Shown here in pieces: positions 37,641 to 42,158 of a stretch of DNA of 43,769 bases (positions within the stretch are counted from its first letter, which is position 1; each line of letters begins with the position of its first letter). Source of the DNA: Candidatus Gastranaerophilales bacterium (GTDB taxonomy: Bacteria; Cyanobacteriota; Vampirovibrionia; Gastranaerophilales; Gastranaerophilaceae). Both the position numbers and the translations under genes were made by a program. The stretch is from the NCBI GenBank assembly GCA_944323875.1, contig CALUUH010000016.1, forward strand, positions 1 to 43,769, read 5' to 3'. The notes below the pieces were generated by a model that was given only the letters and a program-made list of their open reading frames with translations, had not been told where the DNA came from and did not search any database.

Positions 37641-38253
37641 GTTCTTTGTCTAAATTTTGTAAAGCATTAACAAAAATGAAAAATGATAACGCAGTGAGTA
37701 AGGTGAGTGGACAAGTCCACTCTTACACATCAAAGGTGAGTGAAGTGAGTACAGTGAGTGAGGTGAGTAAGATGTCGAAACAAGGCAGGCTAGCCTGCAC
37801 TAACACGCAGGGAATCGCAGAAAGAAATGTTTCCCTCAACGACGCTCTCACCTCCGGCTCCGCTATGGTTTCGGAAAACATTTCTTTCTGCTCACAATCT
37901 GCAGTTCAGCATGACGGAATGGGATTGGCTAAAGGCGAACAACAGTCGCTAGAATTTCCTCGCCCCTTGCGGGAGAGGACGAATTTGTTAGCGAACGAAT
38001 GTGAGCTTAGAAATTCGGGTGAGGGGTCAAACAAGTCTGCTCTTACACACAGGGAGACAATGCAAAGCGACAGTAAGGAGATCCTGAAACAAGTTCAGCA
38101 TGACGTACCCCGTCACGAAGCCACAGAGCCTGCCTCATTTAAATCCTTAGTGCCTCAGTGCCCTAGCAACTACTGCCTTTGTTCGCTCTATCCGTCCGCA
38201 AATCCGCTAGTCCCTTAGCCCCTTAGTGCCTTTTGAAACAACAGTTCTCTTTT
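37641..38253. repeat. Mosaic of dispersed and tandem short repeats, non-coding
   Basis: A 600-bp patchwork: a GTGAGT-rich tandem tract (about 37693-37770) with the inverted pair GTGGACAAGTCCAC (37707-37720). Inverted repeats 37817-37835 / 37873-37891 (GCAGAAAGAAATGTTT...) enclose about 37 bp. A palindromic block with CCTCGCCCCTTGCGGGAGAGG follows (about 37959-38027). Two TTCAGCATGACG phrases occur (near 37904 and 38094), and AGTGCCT/AGTCCCTTAGCC phrases (38148-38231) match 252-270. An open frame through it has a composition set by the repeats and is not a gene. Confidence 0.75.
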
Positions 38254-39636
38254 TTATTCCTCCTGAGTCAAGCAGTCAATTCCTCCCTGACTTCTCAAAA
38301 ATGGAGTTGTTGATACAAAATACATTTTGTCAACGCCGGCTTTTTGGAAATATTTTTCCATTGCTTTATTAAGTTCAGGATAGTCGGATTTGTTTGTTAT
38401 ATAAAATGATTCGCCGGTTTTAGAAGTTCCTCCGATGCCATTCATGTAGTTTATAGTAGAGTTACTGTCTGTTGCAAAACATGGAATTTTGACTATTTCG
38501 TATCCGCTCTCTGTTAATTTTTCTTCGGCTTTTGCACGTATATCTGCGGTTTTATCCCGCATTTCTGTCATTTTAGTGATTAATTCCTGTTTTGATTCCT
38601 CGCTCATTCCTTCGATATTTGTTTCTTGAAGCAGCTTAATCCCTTCATCATAATCCGGTACAGCCATTTGTCCGTTATGGAGCGGTCTGTAGGCCATATC
38701 AATATGAAAATCATACTGCGGCATGAAAGTTACGTTTTCAGGTTTTAGTCCTAAATCATCAGCTATTTGTTTCTTTGCAATTTCGATATTTTCGTCGCTA
38801 TTTTCCAGCTCCATGGCATGCAAAGTATATCCGATAGATTCTTCACCTATAACTGCTGCCGGAGTTCCGTCGGCAAGTTTGGTATTTAAGACATTCCCGC
38901 CTTCAAGATAACTTTTAGAGTGTATTACGTCTTGCGGCTGAATTTTTGCCTCAACTAAATCAAAATAACTGGCTGCAGATCCTTGAGAGGTGTTTGAAAT
39001 ATTTTTTCTATTTTGAATGATACCATCACGATTACGGCGATTGGCAATAACGTTACCTGCCGCATCCTCGGATAAAATAACCATTTTGCCGTCAGGGCGT
39101 CTGACACTGTAATCTTCAACCCATATTCCGCCATCATTATACAATTTCCAGTCATTTACTTCAAAACCGACTTCTTTGCCGATTGCTTCAAGTTCTGATT
39201 TTATAAGAGGAAATTGTTTACCCTGAGCGCCGTTGCTATTTATGCTGGAGATATTTATTTTGCTTATTCGCCGGTCAATGCCTTCTGACCAGCCGGATTT
39301 TGAGAGATTTGACTTAATCCTTTCTGCTGTTGTTTCATCAACTTCTTGTGCAATAGTACCATCTTGAATTTTTTGTGTTAGAGCAATTAATTCTTCATTA
39401 TTTATCTTTTTATCGGCTTTTGATCCTTCAACGGATTTATCAGCTGCTTTTAGCAGTTGATTTAACATTTTTAGTTCATCTTTCTGGACAATTCCGTCTC
39501 CGTTGTCAACTAAAGTCCATAATGAATTAAACTTGGCATTATTAGTTTTCTTTGCTATTTCAGCCCAGTTATCATTCTTTTTGAACTTTATTTTGTTTAA
39601 CTGCGTATTATTCGTATTCCAAAAAGAATAGTCCAT
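38254..39636 (-). CDS. EF-hand-like / guanidine-modifying (deiminase-fold) hypothetical enzyme
   Basis: A 460-residue protein without a signal peptide. Residues about 35-95 carry EF-hand-like loops (LVDNGDGIVQKDEL, KADKKINNEEL). From about 140 on, the order and spacing of pentein-fold catalytic motifs of agmatine deiminase and bacterial peptidyl-arginine deiminase are visible: GGIWVEDYSVRRPDGK (substrate Asp about 175), SYLEGGNVLN (245-248), QYDFHIDMAYRPL (H311, D313) and C-terminal GGIDCLTQEE (nucleophile C455). These enzymes hydrolyse guanidino groups to ureido groups. The AgD C-terminal HC is DC here. Function is inferred from motifs; amidinotransferase or dihydrolase activity is possible. 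No polyamine genes are nearby. Confidence 0.7.
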   Translation of the reverse strand: MDYSFWNTNNTQLNKIKFKKNDNWAEIAKKTNNAKFNSLWTLVDNGDGIVQKDELKMLNQLLKAADKSVEGSKADKKINNEELIALTQKIQDGTIAQEVDETTAERIKSNLSKSGWSEGIDRRISKINISSINSNGAQGKQFPLIKSELEAIGKEVGFEVNDWKLYNDGGIWVEDYSVRRPDGKMVILSEDAAGNVIANRRNRDGIIQNRKNISNTSQGSAASYFDLVEAKIQPQDVIHSKSYLEGGNVLNTKLADGTPAAVIGEESIGYTLHAMELENSDENIEIAKKQIADDLGLKPENVTFMPQYDFHIDMAYRPLHNGQMAVPDYDEGIKLLQETNIEGMSEESKQELITKMTEMRDKTADIRAKAEEKLTESGYEIVKIPCFATDSNSTINYMNGIGGTSKTGESFYITNKSDYPELNKAMEKYFQKAGVDKMYFVSTTPFLRSQGGIDCLTQEE

Positions 39637-39639
39637 TAA

Positions 39640-39672
39640 TATACCTCTCTATATTTAAAAAGTATTTTTACA
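39640..39672 (-). promoter_or_regulatory. Leader resembling the shared element of the 17-20 kb family
   Basis: On the minus strand AAATACTTTTTAAATATAGA, then GAGGTATATTA and the ATG. It resembles TACTTT-x-TA...GAGAGGTATAAAC before the 537-residue gene (20271-20315), sharing the TACTTT core and the GAGAGGTATA ribosome-site block. The GGCAATTTTT part is missing. Confidence 0.45.
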
Positions 39673-39860: not shown

Positions 39861-42158
39861 ATGAATATAAAAGCGACTAATAATATTATCTATTCGCCAT
39901 CATTTACGGCAAATATACATAAAATATCTCAGTCTATACAAAATAATGAATACATGCAAAATGTTTCCGGTATGTCAAAAAGTGTCTTATTGCAGAAATT
40001 TTGTGAATTGTACGGGGAGCCTTTAGCTGCAGAATTTGTGCAACATTTAAAAACTGAAAATCTGAAATATCTTTATTTGTTGGCTTCAAAAGTTGATTTA
40101 AGCGGTTATCGCAGAATTGAAATGGATAAGCTTCAGCAGTTTTCGCAGATCGATATGCTTAAATTGAAAGAGGTTGAACCTTTATTGTTGTCAAAAAATG
40201 ATCTCGGTTTATGGAATTATTCTGCTGATTATGTGCTAAATTTTAAATCTTTGAATAAAAAGCAGCAAGCAGCATTGTTGGATTTGATTCAGTGCAATGT
40301 AACACCGTTTAGCGCAAAAGGTATTATTGAATATCCTGATTTAAATTGGAATAAAATTGTTGAAAAGGCAAAAGCATTAAAAAAATATTATGGGGATGAT
40401 TTGCGGGAAATTGAGTTTTACAGTAATACCAAAGGTGAAAATTTCTTTCTTGCAGATGTACAGCTTCATGATAACCAAAAGCCAGCCTGGCTTAATTATA
40501 AGCGTATTACGGTAAAACTTGATGATGATGTGAATGCGTTTGCTGGTCTGGGAAAGCAGACACCAATTGGAACGATTGTTGATAAATTATATTCAAAGAT
40601 GACTAAGCAAATGAATATATATTCAAAACAAAATCTTAAAACTGATATTGCGAAAATATCGAATGCCGTTCCTGATGCTGCACCAACCGAAATTTTAACG
40701 ACAATTCAGAAAATCACTCAGTTTGCAAATTATTCATCTTTACCGAAATTAGCTCAACAGTTAACCGGTTACAAAATTACTTCATTTGATTCTGTTGGCG
40801 AATTGCATAAGTATTTTGAATATTTTTATGAAAACAAAGGGCTTTTTAAGCTGAGTAAATCAGAAGAAAAACTCGGCTGTATTGTAACTTTGAATGATCT
40901 TAAAAATGAAAATACTCTTAAAGAAATTAAGGAAAAAGTAGCTGCTAATAATTTGACATTGATAAATTTAGAAGGATTCAGCGATGGCGTTAATTTGTTT
41001 GAAGACGATAGAATTTTGCCATTAAGAGCAGTGAATGTTTTGAAAAAAGCTAAAAAAGTTCAGATGGAGTTTCCTGATGCTGATTTTGCAGATTGTGTTT
41101 CCTTTGTCTTGAATAATCCGCTTGAATCCAGATTAAAGGAACTGGGATTGAGTGCTATTCGTGTTAGTATTGAAAATCCTGCAACCCAAGCAGGTGTATT
41201 AAAACAACTTCAGCCGATTATTCCGTCTAAGGAAAGAATTAAAACAACTATTGAAGCTATTGCGGATAGCTATTCAATTACTATGAGATCTTACAATCGG
41301 CTAAGTAATACTATTGCTGAGTATTTTAATTCAAATGCTCATGTATATTCCAAACAGTCTATGATTGAGACTTTGGAAAAATTGAATAATAAGATTGATG
41401 ATTATTTACAAGGACACAATATTCCAAAAGAAAATTTGTATCTCCTTCAGCATAGGATGAGAGTAGTTAAAAGCTTTGATATATTGATGAAGATGTATAA
41501 GGATATGTATAATTTTCCGGAAAGTAGAATTGTGCGGGTAGATGATGTTCAAGATTTAAATAAATATCCCCCAAATAGTGCCTTTGTGATAATTGACGAT
41601 ATTGTTGGCAGCGGTGATTCGATGATCGGTACTGCTGATTATTGTACCGGTGCCCGAAAACTTAACAAAGATAAATTTATAATTTTTGCCCCGATAACTG
41701 CAACTCAAGCCGGCTTGGATGCTATTAATAAATATATAGCCAAACATTCAAGAACCCAAAATGATATTATTATTTGTCTAGATGAAAATGTCTTAGAAAA
41801 AGCGGATGGTAATAAAATATTTAAAAATTGGTATCTAAATTTAAAAAATCTTTTAATCTTTTCGAAAATCAATGATAAAGGTTTTAAAGAACAGGCATTG
41901 AATATTTCATTTCCATATATGGCTCCTGATAATAATTCATTTATTTCAGCAAATCTTCAAGATTTGTTTTTGATTAATGATACTTGTATAAAAAATAAAT
42001 CATATTCATTTTGGGAATTGAGAAAGAAAGCAGCAGACTATGATTTGTTCGGGCAGGATGAAAAATATCTGCTCCCAAATTCAGTAAATGACAAAGCTCC
42101 TACATTGATTGATAAGATAAAATTTGTGATAAGACAAAAGTTAAGAAAAGAAAAATAA
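39861..42158 (+). CDS. Large hypothetical protein with phosphoribosyltransferase-type PRPP loop
   Basis: A 765-residue protein. The N-terminus (NNIIYSPSFTANIHKIS) has no signal peptide. Residues about 30-560 are mostly helical and not recognised. From about 576 the segment AFVIIDDIVGSGDSMIGTAD matches the type I PRTase PRPP loop (two hydrophobics, DD, then G-S-G-D-S), preceded by VRVDDVQDLNKYP and followed by KFIIFAPITATQAGLDAI, a Rossmann-like strand-helix. A Lys-rich tail ends it. No clear Shine-Dalgarno sequence is visible. It may modify a nucleotide, or use the loop only for binding. The SIR2 gene follows 332 bp later on the same strand. Confidence 0.72.
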   Translation: MNIKATNNIIYSPSFTANIHKISQSIQNNEYMQNVSGMSKSVLLQKFCELYGEPLAAEFVQHLKTENLKYLYLLASKVDLSGYRRIEMDKLQQFSQIDMLKLKEVEPLLLSKNDLGLWNYSADYVLNFKSLNKKQQAALLDLIQCNVTPFSAKGIIEYPDLNWNKIVEKAKALKKYYGDDLREIEFYSNTKGENFFLADVQLHDNQKPAWLNYKRITVKLDDDVNAFAGLGKQTPIGTIVDKLYSKMTKQMNIYSKQNLKTDIAKISNAVPDAAPTEILTTIQKITQFANYSSLPKLAQQLTGYKITSFDSVGELHKYFEYFYENKGLFKLSKSEEKLGCIVTLNDLKNENTLKEIKEKVAANNLTLINLEGFSDGVNLFEDDRILPLRAVNVLKKAKKVQMEFPDADFADCVSFVLNNPLESRLKELGLSAIRVSIENPATQAGVLKQLQPIIPSKERIKTTIEAIADSYSITMRSYNRLSNTIAEYFNSNAHVYSKQSMIETLEKLNNKIDDYLQGHNIPKENLYLLQHRMRVVKSFDILMKMYKDMYNFPESRIVRVDDVQDLNKYPPNSAFVIIDDIVGSGDSMIGTADYCTGARKLNKDKFIIFAPITATQAGLDAINKYIAKHSRTQNDIIICLDENVLEKADGNKIFKNWYLNLKNLLIFSKINDKGFKEQALNISFPYMAPDNNSFISANLQDLFLINDTCIKNKSYSFWELRKKAADYDLFGQDEKYLLPNSVNDKAPTLIDKIKFVIRQKLRKEK

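Follow-up and report, generated by a model that had tools for sequence, protein, structure and literature searches.

A predicted new pentein family with an EF-hand-like N-terminal head in Candidatus Gastranaerophilales

The gene and its genomic setting

The analyzed window, a stretch of 43,769 nucleotides from a genome of Candidatus Gastranaerophilales, a non-photosynthetic gut sister group of cyanobacteria, carries on its minus strand a gene for an EF-hand-headed deiminase-fold protein of 460 amino acids (38254..39636). The open reading frame starts with an ATG at 39634-39636 and runs through 460 codons, from 39636 to 38254; a ribosome-binding site, GAGAGG (39644..39649, minus strand), can be read from the sequence 7 nt upstream of the ATG. 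The G+C content of the gene (37.1%) is close to that of the window (36.6%), and comparison with a relative that is 82% identical (L031) gives a dN of 0.12 and a dS of about 1.9, the latter near saturation, for a dN/dS of about 0.06. Thus, this is a real, native gene under purifying selection.

The gene is solitary and lies outside arginine or agmatine pathway operons. A conserved neighbor or pathway partner gene was sought at 31 loci and none was found; the position of the gene differs between genomes, and the flank containing miaA and gcvPB is kept in the two nearest relatives only. Searches of viral contigs and plasmids recovered no relatives of the protein, and thus nothing to suggest that phages or plasmids carry the gene. 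In a sister strain, the deiminase copy (L015/L041) is decayed, with an internal deletion that fuses amino acids ~96 and ~253 and, in addition, a stop.

Several other features of the locus were recorded. Just downstream of the gene lies an interspersed repeat (37780-37925). The 1.94 Mb genome contains seven nearly complete copies of it, 91-100% identical, and one of these is about 1.4 kb from the headless paralog of the protein on contig C2. The gene is adjoined divergently by one for a 765-aa protein (39861-42158) whose PRTase-CE domain (PF24390, E 6e-10) is of the type found in conflict systems, and a SIR2 protein interrupted by the contig end (42636-43769) strongly matches the SIR2 parts of short-Argonaute defense systems (PADLOC E 1e-118).

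The pentein fold and the catalytic residues

The C-terminal portion of the protein (amino acids 115-460; 38257..39294, minus strand) is predicted to adopt the pentein fold of guanidine-modifying enzymes. The AlphaFold2 model, built from 29 sequences, has a pLDDT of 90.2 and a pTM of 0.82, and the top structural matches of this domain are all pentein enzymes: it superposes on human PAD1 with Z 24.8 and on PAD4 with Z 24.7 (2.9 A over 289 and 281 residues, respectively), on agmatine deiminases with Z up to 22.6, and on PPAD with Z 20.9; the top Foldseek match of the model is the agmatine deiminase of C. jejuni (E 8.8e-9). The deiminase fold claimed in the original prediction is therefore borne out by the model, in which the pentein propeller is present. 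By sequence, searches of PDB entries with the single protein and with profiles found no relative. In the VIA alignment, the last residue of the model, 460, pairs with PAD residue 650; if the stretch leading to it is ungapped, the partner of C455 would be C645 in the numbering of PAD4.

The residue set of the guanidine-modifying superfamily, namely a Cys nucleophile, a His and two acidic guanidine-binding residues, is present in order, and conservation was assessed in an alignment of 29 sequences, 28 of which extend to C455. The predicted guanidine-binding Asp belongs to W172-V-E-D175 (39112..39123, minus strand; W in 29/29, D in 28/29); the predicted second acidic binder is in EGGN 245-248 (38893..38904, minus strand), where Glu occurs in 27 and Asp in 2 of the 29 rows and GGN is invariant (29/29); the predicted general base motif is H311-I-D313 (38698..38706, minus strand; H and D in 29/29); and the predicted nucleophile is C455 in GGIDCLTQE (38272..38274, minus strand), found in every one of the 28 rows extending that far. 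In the profile alignment, EGGN lines up with the EGG motif of agmatine deiminases and C455 pairs with their Cys. All four landmarks named beforehand are thus present, conserved and in the proposed order, with one correction: VEDY occupies 173-176, not 174-177, D175 having been placed correctly.

The residue ahead of the nucleophile is peculiar. In PADI, in agmatine deiminases and other PF04371 members, and in a related headless clade, His precedes the Cys, whereas in the headed clade this position is taken by D454 (26/28 rows); substrate and chemistry may differ as a result. This unusual Asp, together with the low profile similarity to any characterized member, would suit a pentein that no longer hydrolyzes guanidines and is instead amidinotransferase-like or a binder of arginine side chains, but every catalytic position is kept under strong purifying selection, and we consider such a loss of hydrolysis quite improbable.

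A separate clade of pentein proteins

The window protein has no match in Pfam or NCBIfam, and none of its relatives scores above the cutoff of any deiminase model; the original suggestion that no described family has this architecture agrees with these searches, in which neither the family nor the architecture was called. The best sequence-profile relative of the headed clade is PF04371 (agmatine deiminase/PPAD), with which it has in common the pentein fold, EGG, HxD and the C-terminal GGxxC. Against the curated PF04371 cutoff of 25 bits, the best relative reaches 20.8 bits and the window protein gives no match; the relative from goat, L026, yields E 2.5e-4, below the cutoff, a value that arose among many scans and serves as a lead only. 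A firmer link comes from profile-profile comparison with PF04371 proteins of cyanobacteria, which gave Prob 93 and E 3.4e-7 and placed EGG, HID and GGxxC in register; in the same type of comparison, the cyanobacterial PADIs (PF03068) are much more distant (Prob 3). The headed family differs from PF04371 in its W-x-E-D motif, the counterpart of which in PF04371 is W-x-R-D, in the Asp before the Cys, and in the EF-hand-like head. Membership in PF04371 was rejected on account of the sub-cutoff scores and the lack of HC at the nucleophile. PPAD itself has an Ig-like domain and a T9SS tail, in contrast to the headed protein, which has neither and ends 5 residues past C455. A type III secretion-like identity (LcrG, E 7e-5) came from a single member of 29 and was judged to be due to chance.

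PADI shares with the headed family the highest structural Z (24.8), the W-x-[QE]-D motif and a calcium theme, but the window protein contains neither PF03068 nor any other Pfam PAD domain. Animal PADIs derive from cyanobacteria; all PADIs have the catalytic residues in common as well as calcium sites 1 and 3, and the cyanobacterial PADI is calcium-dependent (Cummings et al., PMC8826395). The cyanobacterial PADIs in our set (L120-L122) contain QDEIE, whereas positions 176 and 178 of the headed family are Y/T/S/P and I/V. A calcium mechanism like that of animal PADs, which the original prediction had brought to mind, is therefore not supported, since the headed family lacks acidic residues at the equivalent positions behind the catalytic Asp, and a calcium site, if any, would sit in the unrelated N-terminal head. 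Membership in PF03068 was rejected on the same ground, along with the missing domain match. PPAD and the Giardia ADI are the other known citrullinating pentein enzymes, from some bacteria and eukaryotes (PMC8826395); the Gastranaerophilales headed family is neither of these.

Within the phylum, PF03068 was detected in 18 of 292 genomes, none of them within the order, and a search for PF04371 in 98 genomes of the order found none while detecting the controls. The headed clade is present in 28 of 286 genomes of the order. The headless pentein clade (e.g. L061/L100 in the source genome), which has a catalytic domain homologous to that of the headed proteins by hhalign (Prob 99.7, E 1.6e-26), no EF head, and W-x-Q-D and GGIHC motifs, is matched in up to 78 of 272 genomes, a count that takes in cross-matches to the headed clade. 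The source genome encodes one protein of each kind; its headless member is L061 (G000:C2:175001-176308), which carries both of the latter motifs. Some other genomes, G055 and G077 among them, have tandem copies of the headless type. The maximum-likelihood tree cleanly separates three groups: the headed clade with support 99/98, the headless clade with 97/99 and PF04371 with 100/100. The tree carries a long-branch warning, and its root is therefore left uninterpreted. The headed deiminase-fold proteins form a putative new pentein family, a separate, tree-supported clade that is invisible to current annotation. No paper on deiminases of Gastranaerophilales emerged from the titles and abstracts of the co-mentions retrieved in a literature search.

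The EF-hand-like head and its other carriers

The N-terminal head (amino acids 1-112; 39301..39636, minus strand), covered by a profile of the deiminase heads, is modeled with a pLDDT of 90 as a beta hairpin, a helix and an EF-hand-like helix-loop-helix. Alignments place in it an EF-hand-like loop of an 11-residue variant, DNGDGIVQKDE (amino acids 44-54; 39475..39507, minus strand), and a degenerate second loop (amino acids 66-82; 39391..39441, minus strand) with conserved D66 and E82. Thus, of the EF-hand-like loops proposed for residues 35-95, that at 44-54 stands, and the second is a degenerate half-site that makes no clear pair with it. A canonical 12-residue loop is found in relatives L016 (DANHDGEISAGE), L024 (DLNKDGFLQANE), L025, L028 and L065, and two canonical-loop relatives match Pfam EF-hand_5 with E values of 1.3e-3 and 2.8e-4, in both cases short of the curated cutoff. 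The best Pfam EF-hand score among the relatives is 20.6 bits against a cutoff of 25.9, and the window protein has no Pfam EF-hand match. The proposed link to calcium is not supported as stated: the loop is one residue short here, its key residues are lost in L051 and L057, and the EF head is missing in L056 and L058 (2/27 headed-clade members), so calcium cannot be universal. Foldseek and solved-structure searches with the head model identified no solved fold (E >= 2.5, Z <= 2.8); some of the weak rows are EF-hand proteins, within noise. An EF-hand ancestry of the head is likely; calcium binding is possible.

The same head occurs on other enzymes. The search with the window protein also matched the N-termini of proteins of 650-720 residues, and a profile made from the deiminase heads alone finds these protease heads at E 9e-25 to 2e-11, with a score in 0 of 320 shuffled-sequence controls; in the inspected protease copies, the match begins at the first residues of the protein. 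One set of carriers consists of calpain-like peptidases (PF00648, E 3.2e-8, with motifs GDCWF...HAY...NPWD; e.g. L062), in which the head of about 100 residues is homologous and the catalytic domain is unrelated to the pentein domain. The other consists of HExxH proteins (LLHEMVHAM, IHELGHAKDH, LAHETGHAL), which have no match among Pfam peptidase families; one of these, L097, cut by the contig start, was found with the A4 profile and stands outside the listed results of the deiminase-head test. More diverged EF-hand heads are present on other calpain-like proteins (L099, L153, L157, L158). What is new here is that calpain-like and HExxH metallopeptidase-like proteins of sister genomes likewise carry the ~100-residue deiminase head N-terminally, which points to a detachable address or calcium-sensing module, apart from the catalytic machinery. 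Being attached to three unrelated enzymes, the head suggests sorting or regulation. A literature search recovered no paper on calpains of Melainabacteria.

An 1858-aa protein from the same genome (L150:146-5719) has an N-terminal EF-hand above the Pfam cutoff, and large proteins with similar N-terminal matches are encoded in many sister genomes. In genome G129, the head domain stands alone, with no enzyme after it (L065:770-1216).

Whichever enzyme it is attached to, the head could be a protein-interaction or sorting domain that retains EF-hand-like residues by descent and has no calcium site. This reading, for which we see a substantial chance, somewhat short of even, is consistent with the failure of the head model to match any solved EF-hand structure and with the shortened or lost loop of several members; against it speak the conservation of D44, D47 and E54 across the deiminase, calpain-like and metallopeptidase-like carriers, and the relatives with canonical loops and Pfam EF-hand matches.

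Predicted function and implications

We regard it as an even call that the protein is an intact pentein cysteine hydrolase with a detachable head, probably acting on arginine in proteins or peptides; activity on peptidyl-arginine is our best guess. In the predicted reaction, D175 and E245 would hold the guanidinium group, H311 with D313 would serve as the base, and C455 would attack the carbon of the guanidine group, releasing ammonia and leaving a citrulline-type product. Two of the three kinds of headed enzymes act on proteins, which would make a protein substrate more likely for the deiminase, too; with the head common to protein-cleaving enzymes and no arginine or agmatine operon around the gene, arginine in proteins or peptides would be the most likely substrate, ahead of a free metabolite. 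That the enzyme hydrolyzes a small guanidino compound such as free arginine or agmatine for nitrogen or energy, with the head serving only to tether or stabilize it, appears unlikely. The nearest family by sequence profile does consist mostly of agmatine deiminases, and the headed clade could fill the role of the canonical PF04371 enzymes not found in the 98 genomes, but its presence is patchy (28/286), conserved pathway neighbors are lacking, one sister strain has a decayed copy, and the head is common to proteases.

For the preferred protein-directed hydrolase, the head may either place the enzymes at the cell envelope or in export, or bind calcium that would stabilize or activate them once outside the calcium-poor cytoplasm. 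Inspection by eye shows no obvious signal peptide in the deiminase-fold protein, and its export route was not identified; an N-terminal xFxG sorting motif is at background level in the neighboring proteins (13 compared with an expected 8, which ranged up to 17). That a single calcium-sensing head addresses or switches a PAD-like deiminase, calpain-like proteases and metalloproteases of Gastranaerophilales that are active outside the cytoplasm is a bolder proposal, and we hold it to be distinctly doubtful.

If this proposal is true, common gut commensals would make a calcium-gated protein-citrullinating enzyme, with calcium control independent of that in animal PADs. To our knowledge, only a few enzymes citrullinate proteins, and it has been discussed whether microbial citrullination triggers autoimmunity. 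An unrecognized family with the PAD fold in a gut group that is widespread and for the most part uncultured would be a concrete new candidate for citrullination, and the common head may help to uncover more members of this enzyme set.
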